From: Terriglobia bacterium
GTDB lineage: Bacteria; Acidobacteriota; Terriglobia; Bryobacterales; Bryobacteraceae
Assembly: GCA_025363475.1 (NCBI GenBank)
Contig: JANYDS010000061.1
Span: 1-64,000, forward strand
DNA: 64,000 nt
Direction: 5' to 3'
How positions within the stretch are numbered: the stretch's first letter is position 1; each line of letters starts with the position of its first letter. A program made the position numbers and the translations under genes. Under the pieces are notes generated by a model. That model was not told the DNA's origin, made no database searches, and saw only the letters and a program-made list of their open reading frames with translations. Of this stretch, positions 33,504-55,176 are shown in pieces.

Positions 33504-35437
33504 TATTGTAATCTCAATTGCTGCTCTGAAAGCTCCGCTCCCGCAGTTTGGGTGAGAGCCCGCTGCAGCAGATGCAAACCCGGCGTGAACTCCGGAATGA
33601 TCTCCTGAAAGCGGGACAGCAACTGGGCAATATCGCGGGTCTCACAGATCCTCCGCAAGGCGTCCAGATGGCGCTGCATCAACTCTGGCGAAGTGCCCTC
33701 CCCGCGCAGAATTCTGATCTTGTCATGCTCGGTGGGCACAACCATCTCCTGCATCCGCTGCACTTCTTCCCGCAACTTTTCACCTGGGCGCATCCCCGTG
33801 AATTCGATCCGGATGTCATCTCCAGGCCGCAGGCCGGACAGCACAATCAGGTTCTTCGCCAGGTCCACAATCTTCACCGGATGGCCCATATTGAGCACGA
33901 ACACCTCACCGCCCCTGCCCATCGCAGAGGCCTGCAGCACCAGTTGCACCGCCTCCGGAATGGTCATAAAAAAACGTTCCATATCCGGGTGAGTTACAAG
34001 CACCGGACCGCCCCGCGCAATCTGTTCCTTGAACACCGGGACTACACTGCCAGTGCTGCCCAGCACATTGCCGAACCGTACGGAAACACAGGTAGTGCGG
34101 GGAGTCTGAATTGCCGCAATGGCCAGTTCTGCAATACGCTTGGTAGCCCCCATCACGCTGGTGGGGCGCACTGCTTTGTCAGTTGAAATCATTACGAAAT
34201 CCGTGAGGCCTTGTTCCACCGCGCAGCGTGCAGTAATCACGCTGCCGAACACATTGTTTTCCACTGATTCAAACGGATGCAGCTCCATCATCGGCACATG
34301 TTTATAGGCCGCCGCATGATACAGAATCGAAGGCTTGTGGGCAGCCATCACTTCTGATATCCGCCGGGCGTTCTGTGTGCTGCCGATCTCCGAATGCATA
34401 GTGAACCCGGGGAACAGGCGCGTCATCTCGCGTTCCAGTTCAAACAGTGCGCTCTCGGAAATTTCGAACGCCACCAGCGCTTTCGCTCCAGACCGCGCGA
34501 TCTGCCGGCACAGTTCGGAACCGATGGAACCGGCCGCTCCTGTCACCATCACCACCTTGTCGCGCAACTTTTCTGAGGTCCTGAATTCTGTCAAATTCAC
34601 TGGCGCGCGGCCCAGCAGATCTTCCACTTCCACGTCGCGGATCTGACGCGCCAGCCCGTTACCCTGGATGATCTCGGCCAGACCGGGAATGGTTTTTCGC
34701 TGCACCCCGGCCGCCTGGCAAAGGTTCAGAATACGGGCCATCTGCTCGCCGCCCGCTGAAGGGATCGCGATCAGCACTTCCGCGATCTGGTTACCGCGAA
34801 CCGCCGCTGAGAGGTTTTCACCTGTCCCCAGAACCGGGGCACCAGAGATCAGCACTCCATCCAGACCCGGGTTGTCGTCAATGAAACCGCGGACGTCATA
34901 CAACAACCGGGCGTCTGACCGGATTTCACGCAGCAGCGTGGTTCCCGCCGCACCCGCGCCGTAAATCAGAATTCGTTTGCCTGCGGGCGCCCGGCTTTGG
35001 TCAGCCGCTTCAGCATTCACGCGTACAGCTACCCGAACGCCCACAGATGCCATGAAGCACAACAGGAAATCGAGCAGAAACAGTGAACGGGGAAATGAAG
35101 GTCCGGCCGCAATGCGAATCAGAAAGGTGCTGGCCAGAGCCGCGTAGAAATTGGCCCGCAGGATCTTCTGCACATCGGCAATCGAAACAAATTTCCACCA
35201 GCCGCGCTCGAGTTGACTAAACCCGTATGCCACCGCTTTGGTAACCACCCAGACGCTGAGCGCCAGCGTGACATGCTCGCGCTCAGCCGGCGGGATGGTG
35301 AAATCGAAACGGAGCAGAAATGCAGCCACGCCCGAGAAGAAGAATATGACCAGTTGTACCAGCGCGATGATGGGGCGCTGGTTCCGGCTGGTGCGCTCCA
35401 GTGCGCCCAGTATGGCTGCTATGAATTTGCTGATCAT
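33503..35437 (-). CDS. FlaA1/PglF/WbpM-like nucleotide-sugar 4,6-dehydratase, membrane-bound
   Basis: 644 residues from ATG 35437, which overlaps the preceding stop (ATGA). Four N-terminal membrane helices (about 20-135), a Rossmann-like domain (ILIYGAGAAGTTLLREI) and a C-terminal SDR domain (VMVTGAAGSIGSELCRQI, LYHAAAYKHVPMMELHPFE). The catalytic segment STDKAVRPTSVMGATKR has Met where ordinary SDRs have Tyr, as in the PglF/WbpM group, which makes UDP-4-keto-6-deoxy sugars from UDP-GlcNAc. With the neighbouring aminotransferase and phosphosugar transferase it would supply and load an amino-deoxy first sugar. Confidence 0.9.
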   Translation of the reverse strand: MISKFIAAILGALERTSRNQRPIIALVQLVIFFFSGVAAFLLRFDFTIPPAEREHVTLALSVWVVTKAVAYGFSQLERGWWKFVSIADVQKILRANFYAALASTFLIRIAAGPSFPRSLFLLDFLLCFMASVGVRVAVRVNAEAADQSRAPAGKRILIYGAGAAGTTLLREIRSDARLLYDVRGFIDDNPGLDGVLISGAPVLGTGENLSAAVRGNQIAEVLIAIPSAGGEQMARILNLCQAAGVQRKTIPGLAEIIQGNGLARQIRDVEVEDLLGRAPVNLTEFRTSEKLRDKVVMVTGAAGSIGSELCRQIARSGAKALVAFEISESALFELEREMTRLFPGFTMHSEIGSTQNARRISEVMAAHKPSILYHAAAYKHVPMMELHPFESVENNVFGSVITARCAVEQGLTDFVMISTDKAVRPTSVMGATKRIAELAIAAIQTPRTTCVSVRFGNVLGSTGSVVPVFKEQIARGGPVLVTHPDMERFFMTIPEAVQLVLQASAMGRGGEVFVLNMGHPVKIVDLAKNLIVLSGLRPGDDIRIEFTGMRPGEKLREEVQRMQEMVVPTEHDKIRILRGEGTSPELMQRHLDALRRICETRDIAQLLSRFQEIIPEFTPGLHLLQRALTQTAGAELSEQQLRLQ

Positions 35438-36039
35438 GCCCTTGGTGAGGACAGGTGCAAAACCCGGCTGGCAGTCTGCGCCAGAATCGTCAGATCCAGC
35501 CACAGGGAACGATTGGCCGCGTACTTCTCGGCAAGGTCAAGTTTCGCAGGCAGTATCTGATCGCGGTACAGAGTCAGCGGATCAGCCGAAGCGGCCAGCA
35601 GCGATTCCTCATCGCGAAACTGTAGTGACGCAGTATCTGTGATCCCGGGACGCAGGCGCAGCAGCGTTTCATAGCGCACCCGAAACAGTTCCACGTATTC
35701 AGGGATTTCAGGCCGTGGCCCCACCAAACTCATGTCGCCTTTCAATACATTCCACAATTGCGGCAGTTCGTCGAGTTTGGCACGACGCAGGAAACGGCCC
35801 GCGCGGGTGATACGTAAGTCGCCGCCCGAAGTAATTGCAGAGCCTTTCACGGTCTTTTGCATGGAGCGGAATTTGCAGATACGGAAGGGCTCAAAGTCGC
35901 GGCCCACGCGGATCTGTGAGAAGAAGACCGGCAGCCCGGAATCGATCACGATGGCGATGGCAAGCAGCAGAAACACAGGCGAAAGTAAAAGCAGAAGTAT
36001 GGCGCTGACAGCGATATCGACCAGCCGTTTAATCAGCAT
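35434..36039 (-). CDS. PglC/WcaJ-type initiating phosphosugar transferase (short form)
   Basis: 201 residues from ATG 36039, which overlaps the aminotransferase gene by 11 nt. One N-terminal hydrophobic re-entrant helix (about 5-30) and the Bac_transf domain: VFFSQIRVGRDFEPFRICKF, KFRSM, the catalytic Asp-Glu in AKLDELPQLWNVLKGDMS, and SLVGPRPEIPEYVE. Members move a sugar-1-phosphate from UDP-sugar onto undecaprenyl phosphate and so start each polysaccharide or glycan unit. The size matches the minimal monotopic PglC type rather than the five-helix WbaP type. Confidence 0.92.
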   Translation of the reverse strand: MLIKRLVDIAVSAILLLLLSPVFLLLAIAIVIDSGLPVFFSQIRVGRDFEPFRICKFRSMQKTVKGSAITSGGDLRITRAGRFLRRAKLDELPQLWNVLKGDMSLVGPRPEIPEYVELFRVRYETLLRLRPGITDTASLQFRDEESLLAASADPLTLYRDQILPAKLDLAEKYAANRSLWLDLTILAQTASRVLHLSSPRA

Positions 36040-37201
36040 CACACCGGTATTGTGCAACGATTTCCTGCACGGCCTCAATCACGCGTTCCACGCTCTCATC
36101 ACTCATTTTGGAATAGAGGGGCAGCGAAAGCAGGCGCGGATATTCCGCAAGCGCGCGTGTACACGGGTCATGCATAGTAAGAGTGCGCTGATAGTAAGGG
36201 TGCAGCGGGATAGGGATGAAATGGACACTGCACCCAATGCCGCGGTCACGCATCTCTTCAAAAAACCGTGCCCTGTCAATCGTCAGCCGGTCAAGGTTGA
36301 GGCGCAGCACATAGAGATGCCACGAATGGCCCGCGTGCTGATAGCCGGGAGCGACTTCCACTTCATCGAGAGAGGCGAACGCGGCGGTATAGCGTGTGGC
36401 GATTTCCGCCCGCCGCGCGTTCATCCCGTTCAGTCTGCGGAGCTGATGAATGCCAATGGCAGCCGTCAGATCGCTCATGTTGTATTTGAAGCCGCACTCC
36501 ACAACCTCGTAGTACCAGCTGGCTTTTTCCGAGTACCGTTTCCAGGCGTCGCGGCTGATGCCATGCAGTAGCAGAATGCGCATGCGATCTTCCAGTTCTG
36601 CTGAGCCTGTCGTGACCATGCCGCCTTCACCGGTGGAAAGGTTTTTAGTGGCATAGAAGCTGAAAGCCACAGCATCCGATTTGCCTTTGCCAACTGCCTC
36701 ACCATCCGCGTAATATGATCCGGCGGCGTGGGCCGCATCTTCAATTACTTTGAGGTTGTGATTCGCGGCCAGCAGCCAAATCGCTTCCATATCGCAGGGC
36801 AGGCCGGCCACATGTACGGGCAGAATGGCGCGTGTTCGCGGTGTGATGGCGCGGGCAATGGCTTTGGGGTCGATGTTAAGATCTGCGCCAATGTCTGCCA
36901 GCACGGGCGTGGCACCAGTCTGGATGATGACATTCACGCTGGAGCAAAAGGTCATGGGCGTTGTGATCACTTCATCGCCCGGTCCGAGGCCGCAGGCAGC
37001 CAAAGCGACGTGCAGACCCGCGGTACAGGAGTTAACGGCGAGGGAATAGTTCGCTCCCGTATAGGCGCTGAAGTCCTTTTCAAACTGAACGGCGCGCGGA
37101 CCAGTAGTGGTCCAGCCCGAGCGCAGCGTGGCCACCAGTTCATCCACCTCATCTTCACTGTGGTCGGGAACTGCGAACGGCAGCCAGACGGGGTCGGTCA
37201 T
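36029..37201 (-). CDS. DegT/DnrJ/EryC1-type sugar aminotransferase (PglE-like)
   Basis: 390 residues. PLP-dependent transaminase of keto-sugars. Features: SLAVNSCTAGLHVALAACGL, GDEVITTPMTFCSSVNVI, VIEDAAHAAGSYY, the PLP lysine in FSFYATKNLSTGEGGM, and YNMSDLTAAIGIHQL. Its likely substrate is the UDP-4-keto-6-deoxy sugar from the neighbouring dehydratase. It overlaps the methyltransferase upstream by 4 nt (ATGA). No PglD-like acetyltransferase is nearby, so the amino sugar may stay free or be modified by another enzyme. Confidence 0.92.
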   Translation of the reverse strand: MTDPVWLPFAVPDHSEDEVDELVATLRSGWTTTGPRAVQFEKDFSAYTGANYSLAVNSCTAGLHVALAACGLGPGDEVITTPMTFCSSVNVIIQTGATPVLADIGADLNIDPKAIARAITPRTRAILPVHVAGLPCDMEAIWLLAANHNLKVIEDAAHAAGSYYADGEAVGKGKSDAVAFSFYATKNLSTGEGGMVTTGSAELEDRMRILLLHGISRDAWKRYSEKASWYYEVVECGFKYNMSDLTAAIGIHQLRRLNGMNARRAEIATRYTAAFASLDEVEVAPGYQHAGHSWHLYVLRLNLDRLTIDRARFFEEMRDRGIGCSVHFIPIPLHPYYQRTLTMHDPCTRALAEYPRLLSLPLYSKMSDESVERVIEAVQEIVAQYRCDAD

Positions 37202-37923
37202 GCGGTCTCCGGCAAAGCTGGTTTTTCGATCACGGCGACGTAGTGTGTCCGCAGGAAAGGAAGTTTTTCCAGCAGCAGCGCCAGGGTCCAGGACAACGGA
37301 ACCAGACGCCTGGCAAGCGGCGGCGCGAGGGTAGTTTTAGTCAGATGTACGATCCCTGAGGGAAACAGTTTTTGTATCTCCGCAGCGCGGATGCCGCGCA
37401 CAGCCGGGTTGGCAGGGTTATCAATTCGCAGGTCATACCAGAGGATGTGTCCGCCGGGCTTGAGGACGCGGAACATTTCCGCTGCAACGCTCCTGCGGAC
37501 GGGTTCACTCAGGATGGACGAGAAAAGCGTAAACTGGCTTACCAGATCGAAAGTCGCATCCTCCCACGGGAGTTCAGCGGCGTCGCCCGTGCGAAGGTCG
37601 GCCAGCGGCAGGCGGCTGGCGGCGCGGCGGATGCTCTCCGGGTTGAGATCGATACCGCTGAGATCGCCGCTTGATGCGCCCCACTTCGCAAACTCCAGCA
37701 GCCAGGGGCCACCGCCGCAGCCCACATCGCAAACCTTGCGGGCATGCAGAGGGAAACCGCCGTGACTCTGCAGCAAGGCGATGCAGGCGCGCACCAGCTG
37801 CTGGTTGAAGAAGAGGTTGGCAGGCCGGGCCAGGCTGTACGTATCCGGTGCGATTTCGAGTGAGCGCCGCGCATATTCGTTTTCAATGCGAGCCAGTTCC
37901 GCGCTGTGGTCCCTGCCCTTCAT
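37198..37923 (-). CDS. Class I SAM-dependent methyltransferase (polysaccharide locus)
   Basis: 241 residues. KVCDVGCGGGPWLLEFAKWG (motif I, about 63-82), LSGIDLNPESIRRA (acidic loop), ATFDLVSQFTLFSSIL and LKPGGHILWYD are the normal methyltransferase motifs. The position among glycosyltransferases suggests O-methylation of a sugar, but no substrate-specific mark is seen. It overlaps both neighbours by 4 nt. Confidence 0.85.
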   Translation of the reverse strand: MKGRDHSAELARIENEYARRSLEIAPDTYSLARPANLFFNQQLVRACIALLQSHGGFPLHARKVCDVGCGGGPWLLEFAKWGASSGDLSGIDLNPESIRRAASRLPLADLRTGDAAELPWEDATFDLVSQFTLFSSILSEPVRRSVAAEMFRVLKPGGHILWYDLRIDNPANPAVRGIRAAEIQKLFPSGIVHLTKTTLAPPLARRLVPLSWTLALLLEKLPFLRTHYVAVIEKPALPETA

Positions 37924-43547: not shown

Positions 43548-44750
43548 TCACGAATTCGTGTGCCGCCTGACGCGTTCATACAGAGCCAGAGTCTTTTCCG
43601 CGATGCGCTCCGGAGTGTAGCGGGCCAGCACACGTTCACGGCCCGCCGCACCCAGACGCGCACGCAGGGGAGCGTTATTCAGCAGACGCTTGATGGCAGC
43701 GGCCAGTGCGCCGGAATCTCCCGACGGGACGAGAAGACCCGTAACGCCATCTTCAACAACTTCAGGTAACGCCCCTGCAGTTGTGGCGACAACTGGAATT
43801 CCGAAGGCCATCGCTTCGATTACACTGATGCCAAAACTTTCAAACAATGACGGCATGACGAACACTGTCGCCTGTACATAAAGATCTGCAATCGTTTCCC
43901 ACGAGATATGGCCGTTCCATGACAATTGAGTGCCGGTCAGTTTGCCTTCGGGGTCAAAGCCGAATTTTGCAGGTGCCTGGCCCATTTGCCACGGTCCCGC
44001 AAGCGTGAACTTTACAGAGCCGCTGCGGCAGACTTCCTTCGCGGCTTCGAGCAGCGGGACGATTCCTTTCACGGGAGCCAGCCTGCCTGTGTACAAAACC
44101 AGCGGTGTGGCTGATGGGTGAACTGGCCTCGCGGCATGTGCGCGGGTCAGAATCGCGGCCGAGACCGGGTTGGAAATCACCTGAATGTCTTCCAGCGGTA
44201 TTTCGCTTGTACGGGCCAGTTCCAGGGCCTGAAAAGTACTGGGAGAAGTGATCGCCGCAGCGCGCCGCAGTGCAGCCAGCTCCAGGCTGCGATCCAGCCG
44301 GATACCGGTCCCGGACGGCCCACCGCTAAATTTCTGAAAGGTGAAGTTGCTGCCGTGCAGCCGCATCACCAGCGGCGCGATTGGCTTGCGCGCCAGTTGC
44401 AGTGCGCCGGTTTCTGCTGTCTCAATTACATCCGGCACGTCATCGCGAAAAACGCGGCATGCGGCCTGATAAAAACCCTGCGACCATTCGAGCTGCCGGA
44501 CCGGATGCGTGAAGCGCGAGAGCAGCGGCACCTTGCTTAAATACCAATGGCTGCCGGGCAGTTCCGCAGGCACGATTTTGACTTTCCCGCCGCAGAGTGT
44601 TTGCACTTCCTTCCTTCGGGTCCTGGCGACTACGGTGACCCGGTGACCGGCATCAGCAAGAACCGGAATCAGGGCCCGCAGGTAAGCACTAATGCCGCCC
44701 CCCGAAGATGTCTCGTAGGGCGCTTCCATCGAGATGAAGGCTATGTGCAA
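43548..44750 (-). CDS. GT4-type glycosyltransferase (d)
   Basis: About 400 residues from TTG 44750, a start inside the end of the fusion gene (10-nt overlap); no ATG is available before IAFISMEAPYETSSGGG. GT-B marks: SGGGISAYLRALIPVLADAG, VMRLHGSNFTFQKF, VISNPVSAAIL, VLYTGRLAPVKGIVPLLEAA and the donor site PSLFESFGISVIEAMAFG. The last 100 residues resemble those of the GT4 domain of the adjacent fusion gene, suggesting an old duplication. Confidence 0.85.
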   Translation of the reverse strand: MHIAFISMEAPYETSSGGGISAYLRALIPVLADAGHRVTVVARTRRKEVQTLCGGKVKIVPAELPGSHWYLSKVPLLSRFTHPVRQLEWSQGFYQAACRVFRDDVPDVIETAETGALQLARKPIAPLVMRLHGSNFTFQKFSGGPSGTGIRLDRSLELAALRRAAAITSPSTFQALELARTSEIPLEDIQVISNPVSAAILTRAHAARPVHPSATPLVLYTGRLAPVKGIVPLLEAAKEVCRSGSVKFTLAGPWQMGQAPAKFGFDPEGKLTGTQLSWNGHISWETIADLYVQATVFVMPSLFESFGISVIEAMAFGIPVVATTAGALPEVVEDGVTGLLVPSGDSGALAAAIKRLLNNAPLRARLGAAGRERVLARYTPERIAEKTLALYERVRRHTNS

Positions 44751-47437
44751 ATGCCTGTCTTCCGCGCGGAGAACAGCACGTGGCCGGCAAATTCCAGCGG
44801 TTCGGTTTCGAGGGTCCGTCTCATACTGAAACCGGAACCGAGGCCTGTCTTCGCCATCAGCCAGCTTACGGCGAAACGCAGGGAAAGCACGGGTACGATT
44901 AGCACCGCCGTGAGGGGCATGGCGATGCGGGCGGCGCGGGGGCCACCGGTACGTCTCAGCCAGGTCCATGCCTGAAGCGGTAGCGCGCCAACTCCCGGTT
45001 TGATGCTGATGTCCGAGAAGCCGTGTTTCCGCAACAGACGCCTGATGATGAGGGGACTCAGGTTGTAATACGTCTGTCCGTGTACGGGTTCCAGAAAGGA
45101 AGCGCTGCCGCAGAAGACTCCGCCCGGTGAGAGCAGGCGTGCGGCTTCCGCAAACAGATGCTCCGGTTGTTCCAGATATTCAAGGACCTGCCATGCAATG
45201 ACGCAAGCGGCCGAGGCTGAAGCAAACGGGGCTTGCGCGATATCGCCGCGAATGATGGCGCTGAACCTGTTGCCGCCACGGCCCCGGTCTATGCCAAACC
45301 AGCGATAGCCGCGAGCTTCGGCTACAGAGCGATGACGCCCTGAACCAGCGCCCAGGTCGAGGCAGATCCCGTTCCCTTCGGGCAGAATCTCATCAAGATC
45401 ATGAAAGCGAAAAGCCCCTGCAATTGTGCGCATGTCGCGCAGCCGTGTCGCAGGTTCCGCCGGCGAGTAGGGGATGGGGCCGCGAACGGCGGCTCCGGTG
45501 TCTGACCTCGGTTTTGGCTCCCAGTAGCACTCAAAGCTGCGGAACCTGCTCTTCAGTGTTGCCGCTGGCTCGCGGAACTGGGACCGGTGGCAGGCTGTGG
45601 CACGGATTTTCTTTTCGAGCGGGACTTCGAGGGCTCGCCGGGTCCAGTCGGCAGCCGGTTCGGCGGTGAACTTCTGGACATACGGCCAGTCTTCATAGAA
45701 GCGGATGGTCGCGTTGTCGTCACAAAGAAGACGGCCGATTCCATTGACCAGCCGGTGGTCAACGTGACCGCCAATGGCACAGGGAAAATAGAAAATGGCG
45801 GAAGCCGCTTTGTCCCGCACAAGCGCCGCAATTCTTTCGTACAGGTTTGCTTCAAGGGCAGTATCGGCGGATTGGATGGCTCCCCGAAGCTGCTCGTAAC
45901 TGGTGTAGAGCGGCTGACCTGCGGCATCCTGCCGGTAAGGCGCGTCGGAGAAATCCCAGTGTTCGGCCGCACTGACATCAAGGGCAGCCAGACTCTCCTG
46001 GTCTTCTGCGCGCCGCTGCGCCTGGACATCTCCGGTAAGCTTCCATTTTGAATGCAGGTGGCGCGCAAAAGCGGAAAGTGAACCGGCTTCGGGAACGCGT
46101 GTGAAGAGTGTGATGACTGTGACTTTGGCGCCCTTGTCACGCAAGAGTTCGATCAGGCCGCCGCAGGAAATAACTGCGTCATCGGGGTGCGGGGAAAAGA
46201 AGATGTGTTCCTCGCCTTCCGTCAGATCCGCCGGGGGTTTTTCCAGCCCAGCGGCGCGCACGTAGAGCCGCACGTTGTCTTCAAGCTGGTGTTGAACCTC
46301 AAAACTGCGGCGCGCATGTTCACGGCCTGCAGCTCCCATACGGGTTCGTAAAGCGGGATCGCGCAACAGCCGGACCACGGCGGCGGCAAGCGCCTCGCTG
46401 TCGCCGGGATTCACCAGAACACCGCAGTCGCTGTCTCCCACCACTTCAGGGAACGCGCCGGCGTTGGTCACAACAACAGGCACTCCGGCCGCCATGCCTT
46501 CCAGCGCCGAGAGGCCGAAGGTTTCGTAAAACGACGGGCAGACGCAGACTTGCGCCACGTCATACCAGGCCGGCAGATCTTCGCGCGTTACATGTCCCAG
46601 CAGTTCAATCTGACCGTCCAGGCCGGACTGTTCGATCATGCGGTCAAGGTCCGCCTGGGGCAGGCTGGCGTGGCGTTTGCCCGCAAGCAGGAAACGGGTA
46701 CCGGGAACCTGCTCATTGATGCGTATAGCGGCTTCGAGCAAAACGCTGATGCCTTTGCGCAGTTCGAGACGGCCCACATAAAGCACCGCGAGGCTTCCCG
46801 GCTTGTTGCTGAAAGGAGGGTGGCCGTGTGTCGCAAGCAGCGGGATGTTGTTAGGGATGACTTCGGTGGGCGGGGTGCGGCGGCCGAGTTCACGACGAAT
46901 TTCCCTTGCGTGCGCAATGCTGGGGCTGACTAGGATCCGCGCACGAATTAAGGCGGCGCGCTGCATCATACGGCTGAGGAGCAGGGAGGCACCAATGTGC
47001 CGGCCCGGAGTGTGCAGCGCGAAAGTATATTCTTCGCCATGCAGGCGAATCACCAGAGGGATTTTCTTCAGGAAAAGCGCCACGAACAGCATCCCCGTCT
47101 CAGTGCCCTCAATGACATCAACGGGGTGTTCCGCATGCACCCGCTGCGTTTCCCGCCAGGAAATCCAGCAGTATTCCAGTTCGCGGAGAGGCTTGGCAAT
47201 TCTGCTGCCCAGCCACGGAATCTTCGAGGCGTACCAGTGAATGCTGCCGGGCTGGATGCGGCGGATCTCAATTCCACGGTCATCCTGCTGGTCCGGCTGA
47301 CCTTGTTCCGCGAGAGCTAAAACGGTAACCTGGTGCCCGCTGGCGATCAGGGCGTGTGCGAGCGTGTGAACCTGCGTACCGACGCCGCTGCCGCCGGTTC
47401 CGCTGGGGTAATCGAGGGACAGATGAAGGATGTGCAT
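44741..47437 (-). CDS. Three-domain fusion: GT4 glycosyltransferase, PIG-L deacetylase and SAM methyltransferase
   Basis: 898 residues from ATG 47437, 2 nt after the preceding stop. Residues about 1-395 are a GT4 glycosyltransferase (SLDYPSGTGGSGVGTQVHTL; VLYVGRLELRKGISVLLEAA; PSFYETFGLSALEGMAAG). Residues about 408-640 are a PIG-L/LmbE-type deacetylase with the zinc motif SPHPDDAVISCGG (417-420 HPDD) and the distal GGHVDHR. Residues about 675-898 are a class I methyltransferase (CLDLGAGSGRHRSVAEARG; VIAWQVLEYLEQPEHLF). All three active-site motifs look intact. One chain could transfer an N-acetylated sugar, deacetylate it and methylate a product. I do not recall this exact order as a named enzyme. 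Confidence 0.88.
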   Translation of the reverse strand: MHILHLSLDYPSGTGGSGVGTQVHTLAHALIASGHQVTVLALAEQGQPDQQDDRGIEIRRIQPGSIHWYASKIPWLGSRIAKPLRELEYCWISWRETQRVHAEHPVDVIEGTETGMLFVALFLKKIPLVIRLHGEEYTFALHTPGRHIGASLLLSRMMQRAALIRARILVSPSIAHAREIRRELGRRTPPTEVIPNNIPLLATHGHPPFSNKPGSLAVLYVGRLELRKGISVLLEAAIRINEQVPGTRFLLAGKRHASLPQADLDRMIEQSGLDGQIELLGHVTREDLPAWYDVAQVCVCPSFYETFGLSALEGMAAGVPVVVTNAGAFPEVVGDSDCGVLVNPGDSEALAAAVVRLLRDPALRTRMGAAGREHARRSFEVQHQLEDNVRLYVRAAGLEKPPADLTEGEEHIFFSPHPDDAVISCGGLIELLRDKGAKVTVITLFTRVPEAGSLSAFARHLHSKWKLTGDVQAQRRAEDQESLAALDVSAAEHWDFSDAPYRQDAAGQPLYTSYEQLRGAIQSADTALEANLYERIAALVRDKAASAIFYFPCAIGGHVDHRLVNGIGRLLCDDNATIRFYEDWPYVQKFTAEPAADWTRRALEVPLEKKIRATACHRSQFREPAATLKSRFRSFECYWEPKPRSDTGAAVRGPIPYSPAEPATRLRDMRTIAGAFRFHDLDEILPEGNGICLDLGAGSGRHRSVAEARGYRWFGIDRGRGGNRFSAIIRGDIAQAPFASASAACVIAWQVLEYLEQPEHLFAEAARLLSPGGVFCGSASFLEPVHGQTYYNLSPLIIRRLLRKHGFSDISIKPGVGALPLQAWTWLRRTGGPRAARIAMPLTAVLIVPVLSLRFAVSWLMAKTGLGSGFSMRRTLETEPLEFAGHVLFSARKTGICT

Positions 47438-47439
47438 GG

Positions 47440-48381
47440 CTACTCGCCGCCCAGCGCGATCAGGGCCAGATGGGTCCGCAGCCGGCCCCATCGCTGCACA
47501 AGGGAGAGAGCAGTTTCCGCCGATTTAACCCGGTCCGGGCGAAGGAAAGCAGCCAGAAGTTCGCCGGAGATCTGCAACAGACGCTTGATGTCGCGGCCCG
47601 CCTGCAGGGCATAAAACCGCCTCGATTTCGTGCGGCCATAATCGATATGCGGTTGCGATGCTCCGTCCCAATAGACACGGCTCACCAGCCATTTCGGGTT
47701 GCGCCGCCGGGGATGCACGAAATGGGAAACAGCAGCAGCCGGGGCGTAGTACAAGGGCAACCCGTTGGCGCGAAAGCGGTTGAGCAGGGCCGATTCTTCC
47801 CCCGAAATAAGCCGGGAACCTTTGCGGCCAAGGTTCTGATCGAAGCCGCCGTTGGCCAGCAGCGCAGTCACCCGGAATGCCATGTTCGCGCCAATCAGAT
47901 ATTCATCAGGGGACGTCAGAAAATGGCCTTCGCTGCCCAGATCGAGGCCGGAGTAGAGCGCCTCAAATTTCTTCGGGAGCCAGGCTGGCGGGGCAGAGCC
48001 GGTCCAGTCGAGAGAAACAAGGCCACCCACGCAGGCGGGCGCGGGGCGCAGCGTTTCAAATGCCTCAAGCAGAGTTTCCAGCCATTGCGGTTCCGCCTGG
48101 GCATCATCATCAAGGTAGGCGATGAACGGGCTGCGGACGGCGCGGGCGGCGGTGTTGCGGGCCTGCGACAGACCCAGTTTTGCTTCAAATATGTAGCGAA
48201 CGGAAGGCTGCCGCATGGCTGCCTCTTCGACGATGGCCTTTGTGGAATCGGTGGAAGCGTTATCGATCACTAAAACTTCGAATTGCTCCGCCGGCAGAGT
48301 TTGGGCGGCCAGACTGCGCAGTGCTTTTCCCAGAACGGCGGCGCCGTTGTGTGTGCAGACCGCCGCTGAAATGCACAGCAT
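47440..48381 (-). CDS. GT2-type glycosyltransferase
   Basis: 313 residues from ATG 48381, 5 nt after the preceding stop; the longer open frame upstream overlaps the neighbouring GT4. GT-A marks: ISAAVCTHNGAAVLGKALRSL, VLVIDNASTDSTKAIV, GLSQARNTAARAVRSPFIAY with YLDDDAQAEPQWLE (metal site), and SGEESALLNRFRANGLPLYY. Donor and acceptor unknown. It precedes the three-domain fusion gene by 2 nt. Confidence 0.87.
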   Translation of the reverse strand: MLCISAAVCTHNGAAVLGKALRSLAAQTLPAEQFEVLVIDNASTDSTKAIVEEAAMRQPSVRYIFEAKLGLSQARNTAARAVRSPFIAYLDDDAQAEPQWLETLLEAFETLRPAPACVGGLVSLDWTGSAPPAWLPKKFEALYSGLDLGSEGHFLTSPDEYLIGANMAFRVTALLANGGFDQNLGRKGSRLISGEESALLNRFRANGLPLYYAPAAAVSHFVHPRRRNPKWLVSRVYWDGASQPHIDYGRTKSRRFYALQAGRDIKRLLQISGELLAAFLRPDRVKSAETALSLVQRWGRLRTHLALIALGGE

Positions 48382-48386
48382 GACGA

Positions 48387-49559
48387 TTATGCGGCTGCCG
48401 CAATCATTGCCTGATATACAGGCACCATCTGTTGCACCACGCGGTCCACTGCATACAGATCTTCCACGCGCTGACGGGCAGCCCGGCCAAGTTCCGCACA
48501 ACGGGCGGGATCACCCAGCAGGGCGACTACGGCATCAACCAGCTGATCCGGCTGCCCGGGATCAAACAGTATTCCGCTCACACCGTCTTCCAACATTTCC
48601 GGGATGCCGCCGCAACGGCTGGCGATGACGGCAGCCCCGCAGGCCATGGCTTCGAGAGTAGTGTAGGGGAAATTTTCCCAGATGGAAGGCATCAGGCAAA
48701 GGGCGGCGCTTTGGTACCAGGTTTTCACGTCCTCCCGCGGCAGCAGAGCAAAAACCAGGCGGTGTTGCTGCGACCCTGCGGCGCGCATCAGCCGCGCTTG
48801 ATAAGACTTGCCATGCTCATCTTTGGTATCGTCGCCGAAGAAACGAAAGAGTGTCTCCGGGCAGCGGGCGAGCAGTGCCGGCAGGGCTTGTTCCAGCGGG
48901 GCCAGCTTACGCCGCTGCAGTCGCCCGATGAAAACGACGTCGCGCCCGCGTGCTTCGGGCACTGGCGCGTAGGCCCGGGCGTCGATGGGGTTGGGAACAA
49001 TTGCGACTCCCGTGCCGGGACGGTGTACCCAGGCCCGCGTGCGGACGGCCATCGCTTCACTGGGAGAGGACACGGCGTTTGCTCTTAGAATCACGCGCTT
49101 TTCCAGCCAGTAAAGAAAACGCTGCCGCAGATTGGCGGGCAGCCCGTCACCCTGGTCAACGAAGATCCAGGCGGTATGCAGACGCACCATGACCGGGGGA
49201 ATATTTGCGGCGAAGGAAATGAAAAAACTATCGCCCCGGTTTTCAGCGGCTTCGATCAGGTCAATTTTTTGTTTTGCGTGAACCTGACGAACTCGTTGCA
49301 ACGCCGCCCATGCAAAGCCAGGCCAGTAGCGGTTCAGTCGCCAGATCAGTCGCATACTGCTGATGTCCGGTTGTGGCAGAATTCTGTGAACCACCACCCG
49401 ACCGATGGTCTGAATGGTTTCTTCATTTACTGCCAGGCTGATGACCGTAACGCTGTGACCAGCACCCGCCAGGCCGCGGGCCATTTCGTATGTGTAAGCT
49501 CCGATTCCTCCCCAGCCGGTTTCGGGCGGGTATTCCTGGGAAACGAAGCAGATGTGCAT
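48387..49559 (-). CDS. GT4-type glycosyltransferase (e)
   Basis: 390 residues. MHICFVSQEYPPETGWGGIG opens the GT-B fold; VMVRLHTAWIFVDQG, VSSPSEAMAVRTRAW, IVPNPIDARAYAPV, VVFIGRLQRRKLAPLEQAL, and the donor site PSIWENFPYTTLEAMACG with E-x7-E (ENFPYTTLE) follow. It lies 2 nt from the upstream methyltransferase gene. Confidence 0.88.
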   Translation of the reverse strand: MHICFVSQEYPPETGWGGIGAYTYEMARGLAGAGHSVTVISLAVNEETIQTIGRVVVHRILPQPDISSMRLIWRLNRYWPGFAWAALQRVRQVHAKQKIDLIEAAENRGDSFFISFAANIPPVMVRLHTAWIFVDQGDGLPANLRQRFLYWLEKRVILRANAVSSPSEAMAVRTRAWVHRPGTGVAIVPNPIDARAYAPVPEARGRDVVFIGRLQRRKLAPLEQALPALLARCPETLFRFFGDDTKDEHGKSYQARLMRAAGSQQHRLVFALLPREDVKTWYQSAALCLMPSIWENFPYTTLEAMACGAAVIASRCGGIPEMLEDGVSGILFDPGQPDQLVDAVVALLGDPARCAELGRAARQRVEDLYAVDRVVQQMVPVYQAMIAAAA

Positions 49560-49561
49560 CG

Positions 49562-50335
49562 CTAGTTTTTCGGCCGGCCGACGAGTATGTAGGTGACCGG
49601 GGTTTCGGAAGCTTGTTCAAGCGGGGCGATGTAATAGTCGCTTTCAACGCCATTCGACAGCGAACGGGGCAGCGGAGCATGGTACAGAGTCTCCCGTCCC
49701 AGCAGCCTTCGCACCTGATTTTCAAAGCGCAGCAGACGGCTGAAGGCCACGTGCTTGTTCAGCTTTTCCAGTTCCCGCAGTATTCCCGCATGCCGGTGGT
49801 AACTGGCCGAATGGGACTGGTGATAACGCTCCTCAATATGAAAATACTTTCCGAACAGGGCGGCAAATTCAGTGAAGGGCAGTTCCGAAAGGTGGAAGGG
49901 ATTCTTCTCCGCGCCTTTGTCAATGTAATCCGGGTTTGGCGTACTGCAAACGAACATGCCGTTTTTACGGATCACGTTACGAACTGCCTGAAGGAAAAAG
50001 TCGGGATCAGGAACGTGTTCGATGGTCTCGAAGCTGACCACCAGATCAAAAGGTCCGGTGCCCGCGAGGTCGGCCACATCTTTCTGCGCGAAGGCAACGG
50101 CGGGGTGGGCGAACTGTTGCCGTGCCAGCCGCAGGGCGTCACCGGAAATATCCACACCCAGCACGCTCAGCGCCCCTGCCTGCGCCAGAATACGGGAACC
50201 GTAACCGATGCCACAGGCCGCGTCGAGTACGGATTTTCCGGCCGCGCGCGGAGCAAAAAAATCATAACGCTGCCGGTGTTCGGGGAAGTAAAGATCCCAG
50301 TCTTCAGTACCAGGGACGAGGCGTTCGGGAATCAT
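49562..50335 (-). CDS. Class I SAM-dependent methyltransferase (ABC-export polysaccharide type)
   Basis: 257 residues. SVLDAACGIGYGSRILAQAG (motif I), LGVDISGDALRLA, VVSFETIEHVPDPDFFLQ and NGMFVCSTPNPDY identify the fold; the C-terminal NPFHLSELPFTEF segment is common in methyltransferases of O-antigen loci. Coupled to the Wzt-like ATPase by a 4-nt overlap, it could methylate the chain end, as terminal modification is what Wzt carbohydrate-binding domains recognise. That role is inference. Confidence 0.87.
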   Translation of the reverse strand: MIPERLVPGTEDWDLYFPEHRQRYDFFAPRAAGKSVLDAACGIGYGSRILAQAGALSVLGVDISGDALRLARQQFAHPAVAFAQKDVADLAGTGPFDLVVSFETIEHVPDPDFFLQAVRNVIRKNGMFVCSTPNPDYIDKGAEKNPFHLSELPFTEFAALFGKYFHIEERYHQSHSASYHRHAGILRELEKLNKHVAFSRLLRFENQVRRLLGRETLYHAPLPRSLSNGVESDYYIAPLEQASETPVTYILVGRPKN

Positions 50336-51594
50336 TGTGAGAGAGAGATCCGCTCAGTGGACCAGAAACATTTCGGCCGCACCACGCCGCGCCAGTCGCC
50401 GGTGTAATCCCCGCGCGAAGTGCCATCGTCCGTAACGCTGAAGCGCAGCTTTTCTTCCACCAGAGCACAGACCGTGCGCATGTTGCCGATCACGTAGGCA
50501 TTCACGGAGTAGCTTTCGTTGTTCAGCAGGTTGGCGGGAATGGTGCAGCGCGTTCGGAAGACCCCGGGTTCATGATGGCGCGTGCACCACTCCGGGTCGC
50601 CATAGTTGGCTGTTGTGAAGAGCAGAATACCGCGTGAGTTGCGCACGCCGATGACGGGGTTCAGCCGTGCATCCGGCTGCAGAACCACATACTCCATTTC
50701 GAGGATGATGCTGTCGGAGGTGGTAAACATGCCTGCCTGTCCCCCATCACTCATCAGCAGGCGCAGTCCCAGAATTTTCGCTGTGTCGTCACCCGGCGCA
50801 TCTTCCGGGGTCCATTCGAGAGACGTGCAGTCGTCTGTACCGGCACCCAGATATTCGTCGAGAACCTTGCCGACCGGGCCGTGACTGCGCATCTGACCGG
50901 AATCGAGCAGAATCGCCGAGCGGCAAAGGACGGCGATGCTGGTGACATCGTGGCTCACAAACAGGATGGTGCGGCCCTCTCGCGTGATGTCTCCCATCTT
51001 GCCCAGACATTTTTTCTGAAAGGCGGCGTCACCCACCGCCAAAACTTCGTCCACCAGCAGAATGTCGGGCTCCAGATGCGCGGCAACGGAAAATGCCAGC
51101 CGCATGTACATGCCGCTGGAATAGTGTTTTACCGGCGTATCGATGAAGGCTTCCTGTTCGGCAAAAGCCACGATCTCGTCGAATTTTCGTTCGATTTCAG
51201 CACGCCGCATGCCGAGAATTGCACCGTTCAGATAGATGTTCTCGCGGCCGGAGAGTTCCGGGTGAAAGCCGGTTCCCACTTCGAGCAGAGACCCCAGCCT
51301 GCCTCTGATTTCCACCTTGCCGGTGGTGGGCTCAGTGATCCTCGCCAGGATCTTCAGCAGCGTGCTTTTGCCTGCACCGTTGCGGCCGATAATGCCGGTG
51401 ACTTCGCCCTGCGGGATGCTGAAATCAACGTCGCGCAGGGCCCAGAAAGGAAGACTGGCGGGTTGCGGATTGCCCCCTGTGAGGCGGCGCACGGAACGGG
51501 TAATAGTGTCGCGAAAGGTGCTGTAACCGCGACTGGTGACTCCGCCGCGGTACTGCTTGCCCAGGCCTTCAACCTGTATGGCCGGTTGGCTCAC
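50332..51594 (-). CDS. Wzt-like ABC transporter ATPase with C-terminal carbohydrate-binding domain
   Basis: 420 residues. The N-terminal ABC domain has ITGIIGRNGAGKSTLLKIL-type Walker A (about residue 70), the family-specific GSLLEVGTGFHPELSGRENI, YSSGMYMRLAFSVA (signature), DILLVDEVLAVGD (Walker B) and FVSHD. The C-terminal 170 residues are a beta-rich Wzt_C domain that in known cases binds the O-polysaccharide end. The partner permease Wzm is not adjacent or anywhere in the window, although the ATPase itself looks intact. Confidence 0.92.
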   Translation of the reverse strand: MSQPAIQVEGLGKQYRGGVTSRGYSTFRDTITRSVRRLTGGNPQPASLPFWALRDVDFSIPQGEVTGIIGRNGAGKSTLLKILARITEPTTGKVEIRGRLGSLLEVGTGFHPELSGRENIYLNGAILGMRRAEIERKFDEIVAFAEQEAFIDTPVKHYSSGMYMRLAFSVAAHLEPDILLVDEVLAVGDAAFQKKCLGKMGDITREGRTILFVSHDVTSIAVLCRSAILLDSGQMRSHGPVGKVLDEYLGAGTDDCTSLEWTPEDAPGDDTAKILGLRLLMSDGGQAGMFTTSDSIILEMEYVVLQPDARLNPVIGVRNSRGILLFTTANYGDPEWCTRHHEPGVFRTRCTIPANLLNNESYSVNAYVIGNMRTVCALVEEKLRFSVTDDGTSRGDYTGDWRGVVRPKCFWSTERISLSQ

Positions 51595-51621
51595 AGAATG
51601 GAATCCGGCACAGGATGGCTG

Positions 51622-53943
51622 CTACTTCTCGACCTTTTCCACGTCGCCGTAGACCTGCGCGTAGCTGTCGTAGACCTTCTTGTAATCGTAGCCGTAACCG
51701 TAGCCGACTGTCTTGCGCGGGTCCCACGCATTGAGCACCGTGCCGATGATCCGTGTGCCGTCTTCCACAAAGCGCCGGCTGGCGGCAAGAGCAGTATCGC
51801 GGGTGGTGAAATTCGAGCGCACCACCAGCACCACACCATCCGCAAGACGGCCCACCACGCGGGCATCTGAAATCTGAATCATGGGCGGTGTGTCAATGAT
51901 GACGGTGTCAAATTCGCGGCGTGCCCTTTCGAGCAGAGTGGCGAGGCGAGGAGAATACAGCTGGTTGGCGACGCCGCTGCCGGGGGTCCCCACCGGGAGC
52001 AGAAAGAGATCGGGGTGACCACTGGGCAGGAACGGACTATTCATGCCCTCTGGCAGCGGATGATCCAGCAGTACATCACGCAAGCCCCAGTCGCTTTCAA
52101 TGCCAAAAAGGGAGTGGATACGCGGACGGCGCAGATCGGCGTCGATGAGCAGCACTTTGCGGTTGATCTCCGCCAGTGACAACGCCAGATTGCTGGCTAC
52201 GGTGGTTTTGCCTTCGCCTGGTTTGGCGCTGGTCACCACGATGACACGGGGGCGGTCGGAATCTTCGCCCGAGAACAGAATGGAACTCAGCGTTGCACGG
52301 AATGACTCGGCCAGCAGCGAGGGCTTCATGGAAGCTCCGGCAACTAGTTCCGGCGAGAATTTGGAAGTGCCCGCGCCATTGCCGTTCCCGTTGGCATGGG
52401 AGGCAGCCCCTCCGGGGAGTATTCGCGCACCGGCAACATAGCTCAGGCGCCGCGACGCCGTTGTTTTGTCATTTGGAATCACGCCCAGTTCCGGCACATT
52501 GAGGTAGAAGCTCATTTCGCCGGGGGCCTGCACGGTTCGGTCTTCACGCTCTTTCACCAGCACCAGAATGATGCCCGCCATCAGCCCGCCCAGGGTTCCC
52601 AGCAGGCAGTTGCGCAGCATGTTCGGTTTGTAGGGAGCGCCCGGCGGCAGCGCCGCATCCACCACCCGGATATTGGTGGCACGCATGGCAGATAGCACGC
52701 CCGCTTCCTTCACCTTCTGCAGCATGGTGTCGTAAAGCGTGCGCAGCGTGTCGGCTTCGCGTTTCAGAATGTTGTAGTGGCTCAGGTTAACCGACTGGCC
52801 CGAGACCAGTTTCGACTGTGCCGTGTAATCGGCCTGAAGCAGGGCTTCGTGGCGTGAGGCCGTATCAAAATCGTTGCGAATGCGCCGCAGAATGCTGTCG
52901 CGCTCTTTCTCGACGGCCGCTTCCAGCGAATCGATTTCGGCCTGGACCCGCTTCACGCGCGGATGCTCGGCTGTCAGCGATGAAGAGAGCTCTGCTTTAG
53001 AGCGCCGCAGATCGGTCAGCTTAACCCGGTAGTCACGCAGCGAACTGTCGTCCAGAACCTCGGGCAGCGTCTCCAGCGGACTTTTTGAGGCCGTTTCATA
53101 CTTCGACTGGGCCGTGACACGGTCTGACTGGGCTTTCGAAAGGGCCTGCTGTAAATCGTTGAGTTTCTTCTCAGCAAGGTTATCTTTGTCAGACGTGACG
53201 ACCAGTCCGGTTTGCGAAGCGTATTGCTGCAGGCGCTCTTCGGCCTGCTCCAGCTTGATCTTGAAATCTTCCAGCTGGTGCCCGAGAAAATCTGTGGTGC
53301 GTTCAGAGGTCTGCCAGCGGGCCTCCATATTCTGTTCAATAAATTCGTTGGTGAGGACGTTTACGAATTGCGCCGCGACTGCCGGATCTGTGGAATCAGC
53401 TGCCACCTCAATCACCCGCGTTTGGGGCATCCAGTGCAGCGCGATGTTGCCGGAGGCCATGGCGATGGCCATACTTTGCGGGTTAGGGCGCGGGCCTTCG
53501 TTAATACGCAGGGCTTTGACTGAGGCCGAGACCACAGGCTCAGGCAAATGTGCGGCACGAAGCCAGGAGCCGATGCGCGAAGGGGGTGCCTTGACAATTC
53601 CATCCGCGCCACCCATTTTTCGAACCACACGCTCGGTGAGTGAGCGGCTGCCCAGCACTATGATCTGGGTCTGAATATCCAGCTCGGGATTAAAACTATT
53701 CCCCGGGTCGGTGGTCGGGGTGGCAGCACCCATGTTCAGGAAGTTCTCATTGAGACCCTGGATTTCAATGGTGCTCTTTGCCTGGTAGACGGGGGTTTGC
53801 GGCAAGGTGTACAGGACGGCGAGCAGAATTCCGGAAAACGCTGTAATGAGAACGGTCCATTTCCTGCGGCGCAGAATGTACAGGTAGACCAGGAGACCGC
53901 CCGAGCCTGACTCCTCACCGGTATCGGTCTGGGGGAGTTCCAT
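51622..53943 (-). CDS. Wzc-like polysaccharide co-polymerase and tyrosine autokinase
   Basis: 773 residues. A Wzz domain with a first membrane helix (about 30-50) leads to a long periplasmic coiled coil (about 205-430) and a second helix (about 450, NCLLGTLGGLMAGIILVLVK). The cytoplasmic BY-kinase has Walker A VTSAKPGEGKTTVASNLA (about 570), Walker A' VLLIDADLRRPRIH and Walker B-like TVIIDTPP. The C-terminus carries a tyrosine cluster (YGYGYDYKKVYDSYAQVY) for autophosphorylation. It controls chain length and export with the outer-membrane Wza. No Wzb-like phosphatase is visible in the window. Confidence 0.94.
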   Translation of the reverse strand: MELPQTDTGEESGSGGLLVYLYILRRRKWTVLITAFSGILLAVLYTLPQTPVYQAKSTIEIQGLNENFLNMGAATPTTDPGNSFNPELDIQTQIIVLGSRSLTERVVRKMGGADGIVKAPPSRIGSWLRAAHLPEPVVSASVKALRINEGPRPNPQSMAIAMASGNIALHWMPQTRVIEVAADSTDPAVAAQFVNVLTNEFIEQNMEARWQTSERTTDFLGHQLEDFKIKLEQAEERLQQYASQTGLVVTSDKDNLAEKKLNDLQQALSKAQSDRVTAQSKYETASKSPLETLPEVLDDSSLRDYRVKLTDLRRSKAELSSSLTAEHPRVKRVQAEIDSLEAAVEKERDSILRRIRNDFDTASRHEALLQADYTAQSKLVSGQSVNLSHYNILKREADTLRTLYDTMLQKVKEAGVLSAMRATNIRVVDAALPPGAPYKPNMLRNCLLGTLGGLMAGIILVLVKEREDRTVQAPGEMSFYLNVPELGVIPNDKTTASRRLSYVAGARILPGGAASHANGNGNGAGTSKFSPELVAGASMKPSLLAESFRATLSSILFSGEDSDRPRVIVVTSAKPGEGKTTVASNLALSLAEINRKVLLIDADLRRPRIHSLFGIESDWGLRDVLLDHPLPEGMNSPFLPSGHPDLFLLPVGTPGSGVANQLYSPRLATLLERARREFDTVIIDTPPMIQISDARVVGRLADGVVLVVRSNFTTRDTALAASRRFVEDGTRIIGTVLNAWDPRKTVGYGYGYDYKKVYDSYAQVYGDVEKVEK

Positions 53944-53951
53944 ACTGCGCT

Positions 53952-53976
53952 GGCGGGCATAATGGCCATGCCCGCC
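53952..53976 (-). promoter_or_regulatory. Perfect hairpin just upstream of the Wzc-like start
   Basis: GGCGGGCAT-N7-ATGCCCGCC forms a perfect 9-bp stem 8 nt before ATG 53943, within the 113-nt gap that separates the Wza-like and Wzc-like genes. No Shine-Dalgarno lies between it and the ATG. There is no T run, so it is not a typical terminator; it could limit wzc translation, act as an RNA-processing site or stabilise the mRNA. Confidence 0.45.
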
Positions 53977-54056
53977 GTTGCCGCGCGACGGGAAATCGCC
54001 GGGCGGAGCAGGGGTGCTGAAACTTTCGTCAGTGATTCGGTCAGCCAGGAAGTGTC

Positions 54057-55055
54057 CTATTTTGTGGTTGCGAATACTCCGGCGGAAACAATACTCGGGA
54101 TGGCTATGGCGGCCAGCTTTTTGCCCGTGCTGCCTGAGACCACCAGAATGTCATTGGCCTGCATGGAAATGTCGCGCGACTTGCCCTTCATGATGCTGCT
54201 GAGGTTTACTGTGATTTCCTCGCGCTGAGCTTTGCCCGGCAGAGTGCGCAGCACCTTGGCCTTACCCGAATTCGCGGTGGGACCCAGACCGCCCGCCATG
54301 GACAGCGCTTCCAGAATGGAAATTGTCTTGCGTTCACCCAGCGCCAGGCCGCCTGAAACTCTCACTTCCCCGACGACGTAGATCATCTCCCCTTTGGGCA
54401 CAGTAATCACGTCGTTCGGTTTGATCTCAATGTTTTCCTCGGGCTTTTTTGCTTCCATGACATCTTTCAGCACCACTTCCGCGAGGCTGAATTTGCCCGT
54501 CGGGTCTGTTGTGGCCCCGGTCAGGGGAATAACGCCGTTTTCGATCCTGCGGGTGATGCGTGCACTGTTGCCGGCATCAGGCTTGATGCCGCCAGCCATG
54601 GAAAGGACTTCATACAAGTTTTTATTGCCGCGCAACTGGAGCACACCTGGCGAACCTACCGAACCGAGCACCGATACCGGCTGACTGCGGAATTCCAGCA
54701 CAGAGATCGATACGGCCGGTTCCTTGATGTACTTTCTGAGCTTTTCCGTAAGTTGCTGCCGCAACTGCTGAACTGTCAGGCCGGCAACCTGCACCGGACC
54801 CACCAGCGGAAGATAGAGCTGGCCGTTGGTATCTACCAGAATCGGTTTATCGTTGATGTCTTCGAGTTCAGAGACGCGGATTACGATCTGATCATCCGGA
54901 CCGAGGACGTAGCTTGACCGAACCTGCGACGCGTTTTGAGGTTGAATCGAGTCGATTCCGAGCGATTGAGCAGCCATCAGCCCCGGCCAAATCAAACAAA
55001 ACACTGCCGTGGCACGTGCCGGATTTCTTATCGCTTTTCTCATCAGAATAATCAT
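54057..55055 (-). CDS. Wza-like polysaccharide export protein
   Basis: 332 residues from ATG 55055, preceded by GAGG 6 nt upstream (ATG 55043 is possible). The signal peptide (ATAVFCLIWPGLMAAQ) lacks a lipobox Cys. The Poly_export domain (YVLGPDDQIVIRVSELEDI, DTNGQLYLPLVGPVQVAGLT, LTEKLRKYIKEPAVSISVLE) and two SLBB repeats (VSVLGSVGSPGVLQLRGNKN; IYVVGEVRVSGGLALGERKT) follow. It forms the outer-membrane exit channel or its periplasmic ring for the polysaccharide. It is the first gene of the minus-strand operon. Confidence 0.93.
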   Translation of the reverse strand: MIILMRKAIRNPARATAVFCLIWPGLMAAQSLGIDSIQPQNASQVRSSYVLGPDDQIVIRVSELEDINDKPILVDTNGQLYLPLVGPVQVAGLTVQQLRQQLTEKLRKYIKEPAVSISVLEFRSQPVSVLGSVGSPGVLQLRGNKNLYEVLSMAGGIKPDAGNSARITRRIENGVIPLTGATTDPTGKFSLAEVVLKDVMEAKKPEENIEIKPNDVITVPKGEMIYVVGEVRVSGGLALGERKTISILEALSMAGGLGPTANSGKAKVLRTLPGKAQREEITVNLSSIMKGKSRDISMQANDILVVSGSTGKKLAAIAIPSIVSAGVFATTK

Positions 55056-55176
55056 TGTCAGCCTCAATCCTGCACGCCAAAACCCGATTTCCGGCAAGCT
55101 CCGCCCTGTAAGTCACAACATAAGGCGTTATCTCGTTGCCTTGTGCGTTTCGTTCTCATCTAGTGACCGTATGATT

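Follow-up and report, generated by a model that had tools for sequence, protein, structure and literature searches.

The window considered here is a stretch of 64,000 nucleotides (positions 1 to 64,000 of the forward strand of contig JANYDS010000061.1, assembly GCA_025363475.1) from a Terriglobia bacterium of the acidobacterial family Bryobacteraceae, whose genome is 96.34% complete and 0.18% contaminated. On its minus strand, a single gene (44741..47437) encodes a protein of 898 residues in which three enzymes – a GT4 glycosyltransferase, a PIG-L/LmbE-type deacetylase and a class I S-adenosylmethionine (SAM)-dependent methyltransferase – follow one another in one chain. The frame is open over all 898 codons, from an ATG at 47437 to a stop at 44741-44743, while the plus strand of the same segment is interrupted by stops. 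As an alternative in-frame ATG further upstream, which would give 916 residues, sits within the preceding gene, we prefer the start at 47437. A first, sequence-only reading had described a fusion of three domains, each with its motifs intact, within a polysaccharide locus, and the fusion itself is borne out by the single frame, by four Pfam domains that all score above Pfam's curated cut-offs and by the presence of the catalytic motifs. The fold is supported well for the PIG-L domain, moderately for the methyltransferase and by Pfam only for GT4.

Three domains in one chain

The GT4 domain occupies residues 1 to about 397 (46247..47437, minus strand), with Pfam matches to Glyco_trans_4_4 at 17-196 or 17-198 (2.3e-17) and to Glycos_transf_1 at 214-373 (5.9e-38). 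Enzymes of family GT4 follow the EX7E rule, and the domain has both Rossmann-like halves of the GT-B fold together with the motif, in the form ETFGLSALE (residues 305-313; 46499..46525, minus strand). Among the matches listed from 61 genomes, its own included, the closest is the gene that follows it in the operon (43548..44750, minus strand), with 38% identity over a match at 43569-44750 (5.9e-60); the best match listed from another genome reaches 3.0e-37. The two also pair in a tree built with all 13 other GT4 rows that passed a length filter (shorter rows having been dropped), with support of 90/86, below the starred level. Specific identities as MshA or BshA are not borne out, the scores being 94.7 bits against an NCBIfam equivalog cut-off of 462.5 and 84.1 bits against one of 273.7, respectively; among the 25 NCBIfam rows listed, none reaches its own cut-off.

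The deacetylase domain spans residues 411-640 (45518..46207, minus strand; Pfam PIG-L at 413-567, 2.7e-18). LmbE-like enzymes have been defined by an HXD1D2 motif and a distant His, with 97-148 residues between the second and third metal ligands (as given in PMC4101496). Here, the conserved columns supply HPDD at residues 417-420 (46178..46189, minus strand; H417 as ligand, D419 as base, D420 as ligand) and GGHVDHR at 556-562 (GGHVDH at 556-561, then R562; 45752..45772, minus strand), in which H561 is taken as the third ligand, 141 residues after D420. In a model of the C-terminal 499 residues, the domain has predicted local distance difference test (pLDDT) values mostly of about 90 or above. 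The top eight Foldseek matches are all teicoplanin and A40926 pseudoaglycone deacetylases (template modelling score to target 0.75-0.79), led by the teicoplanin enzyme (1.4e-16 to 3dff), and by sequence Dbv21 is the nearest solved PIG-L structure (7.6e-14). These deacetylases are described as removing the acetyl group from N-acetylglucosamine (GlcNAc) once this sugar has been joined to a large acceptor, and the same account gives an N-acetyl- or N-acylglucosamine core as the substrate of all LmbE-like enzymes then known (PMC4101496). As for the role of a glycopeptide pseudoaglycone deacetylase in the narrow sense, no glycopeptide cluster was found among the neighbours scanned.

The methyltransferase domain (residues 666-898; 44744..45442, minus strand) matches Pfam Methyltransf_11 at 693-776 (2.6e-11). 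Class I methyltransferases carry a glycine-rich motif I and an acidic residue after the second strand, and both are found here, as LDLGAGSG at residues 693-700 (45338..45361, minus strand) and within GID at 715-717; in an alignment of nine rows (A4), positions D30, G34, G36 and D53 are invariant. The 499-residue model renders it poorly (pLDDT of about 30-71 by block). Modelled alone (nine rows), it reaches a mean pLDDT of 73.1 and a predicted template modelling score of 0.71, with a Rossmann-like core and a long helix at 818-863, within which lies a hydrophobic stretch (residues 844-862; 44852..44908, minus strand). A comparable stretch is present in the related methyltransferases of loci L042 and L038, and none is detected in that of L033 at the threshold used. 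Of the 50 Foldseek matches listed for the domain modelled alone, 17 carry the title of a phosphoethanolamine N-methyltransferase or of some other N-methyltransferase, and the same 50 include RebM, TleD, AtmM and uncharacterised enzymes (we take RebM to be a sugar O-methyltransferase, and several of the other functions are likewise presumed). N-, O- and other methyltransferases are all represented in the list, which does not decide between nitrogen and oxygen as the methyl target. NodS, a candidate type of N-methyltransferase, does not appear in the list of 15 Pfam families with an E-value of up to 1, a range in which the HMMER filters drop most weak matches. Another relative of this domain (L138:4957-5898) has an N-terminal CPxC...CPxC segment that looks Trm112-like by eye, in a frame that overlaps a GT4 frame.

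Integrity and distribution of the fusion

The sequence-only reading had allowed for the case in which missing stop codons in the assembly merge what relatives keep as three genes, and for the case in which key residues are absent. The second case falls away, with EX7E, HPDD, GGHVDH and LDLGAGSG all present. An assembly or sequencing error that joined two or three genes draws some support from the fact that the three-domain form has been seen in one genome only, and the joint between GT4 and PIG-L rests on that genome. We nevertheless regard such an error as highly improbable. No in-frame stop is found at either joint, codon-position GC is fairly even over the gene, and homology to GT4 proteins persists, with no change of frame, up to about residue 397, the first PIG-L strand beginning at 411. 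Across the short linker between them (residues 398-410; 46208..46246, minus strand), there is no ATG, GTG or TTG in any frame over codons 394-418, and therefore a stand-alone deacetylase could not start there.

The second joint (linker residues 641-665; 45443..45517, minus strand) is independent of this assembly, because a relative from a distant phylum aligns across it. This is a two-domain PIG-L–methyltransferase of 510 residues (L042) from Candidatus Omnitrophota STA_84 (JAQTOI010000027.1, 1675-3207), to which the C-terminal 499 residues of the fusion align end to end, through both domains and the linker, with 41% identity over 506 columns (36% in PIG-L and 49% in the methyltransferase). 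As the nearest relative found of the GT4 domain is the next operon gene, and a collinear PIG-L–methyltransferase module exists in the Omnitrophota, sequence comparison suggests that the fusion may have arisen when a duplicated operon GT4 gene was joined to such a module.

The three-domain architecture itself was found in no other genome, plasmid, phage, viral or contig set searched. In the 61-genome search, the matches listed besides the fusion gene stay about within the GT4 part. With residues 400-898 as query, eight of 396 genomes of the phylum match at 1e-15 – the genome itself, five in the PIG-L part and two in the methyltransferase part – as do five of 257 genomes of the order at 1e-12 (the genome itself, and two in each part), and none of the 18 genomes of the same genus (G001-G018) at 1e-12. 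The Omnitrophota protein is similarly isolated, with two of 334 genomes of its phylum matching at 1e-18: its own, and one in the methyltransferase part only. Among plasmids, no record out of 1240 matching the whole protein, and none of 20 matching the L042 protein, covers 80% of its query in one place; residues 400-898 give no match in phages, and 23 pattern matches but no relatives in the genome_contigs set. Searching the latter with a PIG-L alignment (A1) yields at least 591 matches and 490 relatives; in the best 80 of these 490 and seven other loci, 86 PIG-L frames have no partner, one (L042) has the methyltransferase and none has GT4. The same alignment finds five relatives in the viral_contigs set, of which the two scanned (L129 and L130) encode PIG-L without fusion. 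A search of open-licence literature for a protein combining a glycosyltransferase, PIG-L and a methyltransferase brought up no paper recognisable as describing one. Each domain is ordinary, and it is their three-part combination that is seen nowhere else within the searches made; the earlier impression that no named protein matches stands for the whole chain, but the C-terminal part has its collinear relative in the Omnitrophota. Glycosyltransferase fusions of another kind, long single frames in which GT2- and GT4-type domains and further parts seem, by eye, to be combined, occur in other genomes of the family (L005 and L006).

The polysaccharide locus and the neighbourhoods of relatives

The fusion gene belongs to a run of minus-strand genes spanning 33503-55097. 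It starts two bases past a GT2 glycosyltransferase gene (47440..48501, minus strand), and its end overlaps the assumed start of the next gene – the GT4 gene mentioned above – by 10 bases. At the far downstream end, family scans place a UDP-GlcNAc (uridine diphosphate-GlcNAc) 4,6-dehydratase-like enzyme, a phosphoglycosyl transferase, a DegT-type aminotransferase and a separate methyltransferase (33503..37923, minus strand); the dehydratase-like protein scores 154.6 bits against a PseB cut-off of 407.75 and is also below the FnlA cut-off. At the upstream end (49562..55097, minus strand) lie a further methyltransferase, a Wzt-type ATPase with Wzt_C, a Wzc-like kinase/chain-length protein and a Wza-like export protein. 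The ATPase gene (50332-51594, minus strand) is four genes upstream of the fusion, and its match to Wzt_C is weak, at 34.4 bits for a cut-off of 30.4; the genome has four more Wzt_C matches, all on different contigs from this one. The run also holds five further GT4/GT1-type and two GT2 glycosyltransferase genes, besides the two methyltransferase genes, at 37201 and 49565. The frame at 40814-42367 matches nothing in Pfam at 1e-4 or in NCBIfam at 1e-10, and looks by eye like a polymerase-type membrane protein. The neighbouring genes scanned match polysaccharide families or nothing, in keeping with the setting first proposed.

Pairs of the three kinds of domain are encoded by adjoining genes in a number of genomes. 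In all five loci retrieved from the same phylum by PIG-L similarity (L032, L034-L037), the gene immediately upstream of PIG-L is GT4-like, and GT4 is followed by PIG-L in two Methylobacterium loci (L039 and L040), whose selection for matches to both domains makes them non-independent. Out of the 20 plasmid records with a relative of the L042 protein, four (L134-L137) were inspected, and the same order recurs on those from Roseomonas (L136) and Hymenobacter (L137), in the latter with a broken GT4 frame. PIG-L is directly followed by a methyltransferase gene in L060 and L112, while in L065 and L106 a methyltransferase gene lies 200-330 bases upstream of PIG-L; GT4 directly precedes a methyltransferase gene of this family in two of five methyltransferase loci (L138 and L142, not L033, L038 or L141). 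In phage DLP3, genes for a PIG-L deacetylase, WcaG, WecE, a methyltransferase and a BshA-like glycosyltransferase form one run of separate genes (96-102), according to Table 2 of PMC7326821, whose authors read the methyltransferase as Erm(45)-like.

The plasmid clusters of Roseomonas and Hymenobacter, which belong to different phyla, are also alike in a wider sense, each comprising genes for a YcaO-like protein, a sugar phosphate isomerase, a Gfo/Idh oxidoreductase, GT4 and PIG-L, and may represent an undescribed small-molecule pathway.

A proposed reaction series and its relation to known systems

We give about an even chance to the reading that the protein works in capsule or exopolysaccharide synthesis as a tailoring glycosyltransferase made of one chain, in which one sugar would be transferred, deacetylated and methylated in sequence. 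Using a nucleotide-sugar donor, the GT4 domain would add an N-acetylhexosamine (GlcNAc, probably, or a related sugar) to a membrane-linked (lipid-linked) oligosaccharide, the PIG-L domain would remove the acetyl group from the newly placed sugar and the methyltransferase would then methylate either the amine so exposed or an oxygen; its hydrophobic helix may keep the methyltransferase close to the membrane. We infer that the three domains share one sugar, as well as the order of the steps and the contact with the membrane. A more specific version, in which one chain builds an N-methylated hexosamine in place – transferring GlcNAc to a lipid-linked glycan, deacetylating it and methylating the amine while the product is still bound, perhaps to give a terminal cap that Wzt_C would recognise – seems to us unlikely; the freed amine had been raised as a possible methylation site in the sequence-only reading.

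Sequential action is the most economical account of a GT4–PIG-L–methyltransferase chain, and the GT4–PIG-L, PIG-L–methyltransferase and GT4–methyltransferase gene pairs of some genomes fit it. Also counted in its favour are the intact motifs, the UDP-GlcNAc-dehydratase-like enzyme, the aminotransferase and the phosphoglycosyl transferase of the locus, as well as the closeness of the PIG-L domain to deacetylases of attached GlcNAc. The idea of consecutive transfer, deacetylation and methylation, already part of the sequence-only reading, is to that extent upheld; however, the linkages on which it draws are far from universal, and several observations weigh against it. The GT4-like genes of the five same-phylum loci give no BLAST match to the fusion's GT4 at an E-value of 1e-3, so the linkage there concerns another GT4 subgroup. 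In the genome_contigs set, where many loci are cut by contig ends, a GT4 hit of any kind occurs in 10 of 80 loci, and a GT4 gene directly upstream on the same strand in none; of the order's two PIG-L relatives, one (L139) has no GT4 nearby and the other (L140) ends near its upstream side. The profiles used for neighbours were small (11 GT4, four methyltransferase and seven PIG-L sequences), making a missing neighbour weak evidence. Two of the four plasmid relatives, from Sinorhizobium (L134) and Phyllobacterium (L135), lie in clusters that resemble sugar transport and catabolism, with isomerase genes and neither GT4 nor methyltransferase. L042, for its part, has Asn at the position of the nearly invariant H558 (the first His of HxDH), and its deacetylase may, judging by this substitution, be altered. 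Finally, the operon has two further methyltransferases of its own.

As an alternative, the fusion might serve mainly to co-produce and co-localise three operon activities, each with its own target in the repeat unit: GT4 would add one sugar, PIG-L would deacetylate a GlcNAc placed by another transferase and the methyltransferase would O-methylate elsewhere. In its favour, the operon is rich in other glycosyltransferase and methyltransferase genes, a PIG-L–methyltransferase without GT4 exists in L042, and the absence of BLAST matches between the relatives' upstream GT4 genes and the fusion's GT4 counts for this alternative and against the sequential reading. Set against it is the pairwise adjacency of GT4 with PIG-L, and with the methyltransferase, in several genomes, which suggests a shared substrate; we treat co-production as a tentative but serious possibility. 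In another arrangement, the sugar would be a chain cap, a terminal amino sugar that is placed, deacetylated, methylated and then read by the operon's Wzt_C protein, much as methyl caps are read by Wzt in Escherichia coli O8 and O9a. The presence of a Wzt-type ATPase with Wzt_C in the operon is what recommends it. The weakness of that match, the Wzc and Wza parts of the locus and the lack of any ABC2_membrane (Wzm-type) match on this contig, out of nine in the genome, tell against it and make a cap decidedly doubtful.

If the domains do act in sequence, as we favour, the fusion would show which activities share a substrate, would link a rare PIG-L–methyltransferase module and several GT4–PIG-L gene pairs with a single series of reactions and would offer a compact means of preparing amino sugars methylated on N or O. 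It would also be a case of an operon pathway merged into one chain, its pieces being the duplicate of a transferase and a module with a counterpart in a distant phylum.

The classic pairs in which a GT4 GlcNAc transferase is followed by a PIG-L-type deacetylase are MshA/MshB, BshA/BshB and PIG-A/PIG-L; they resemble the fusion in this succession, and differ from it in being separate proteins with no methyltransferase, while the fusion's GT4 scores far below the MshA and BshA cut-offs. NodB, which also precedes a methylation step, belongs to another deacetylase family. Hexosamine N-methylation after deacetylation has its precedent in NodB followed by NodS, as described in PMC5080398; these, too, are separate proteins, and NodS is not among the fusion's Pfam matches. 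The adjoining GT4 and PIG-L genes of Methylobacterium, Roseomonas and Hymenobacter share two of the three parts, albeit as separate genes, and the (small) profile gives no methyltransferase match beside them. In the deacetylase, the nearest structures are those of Orf2* (teicoplanin) and Dbv21 (A40926), which likewise act on an attached GlcNAc; unlike the fusion, they are glycopeptide enzymes without GT4 or methyltransferase domains, and their identity in structural alignments is 24%. Although the Omnitrophota protein has no GT4 in its chain, an altered deacetylase position and other neighbours, it is this protein that shares with the fusion a collinear PIG-L and methyltransferase.

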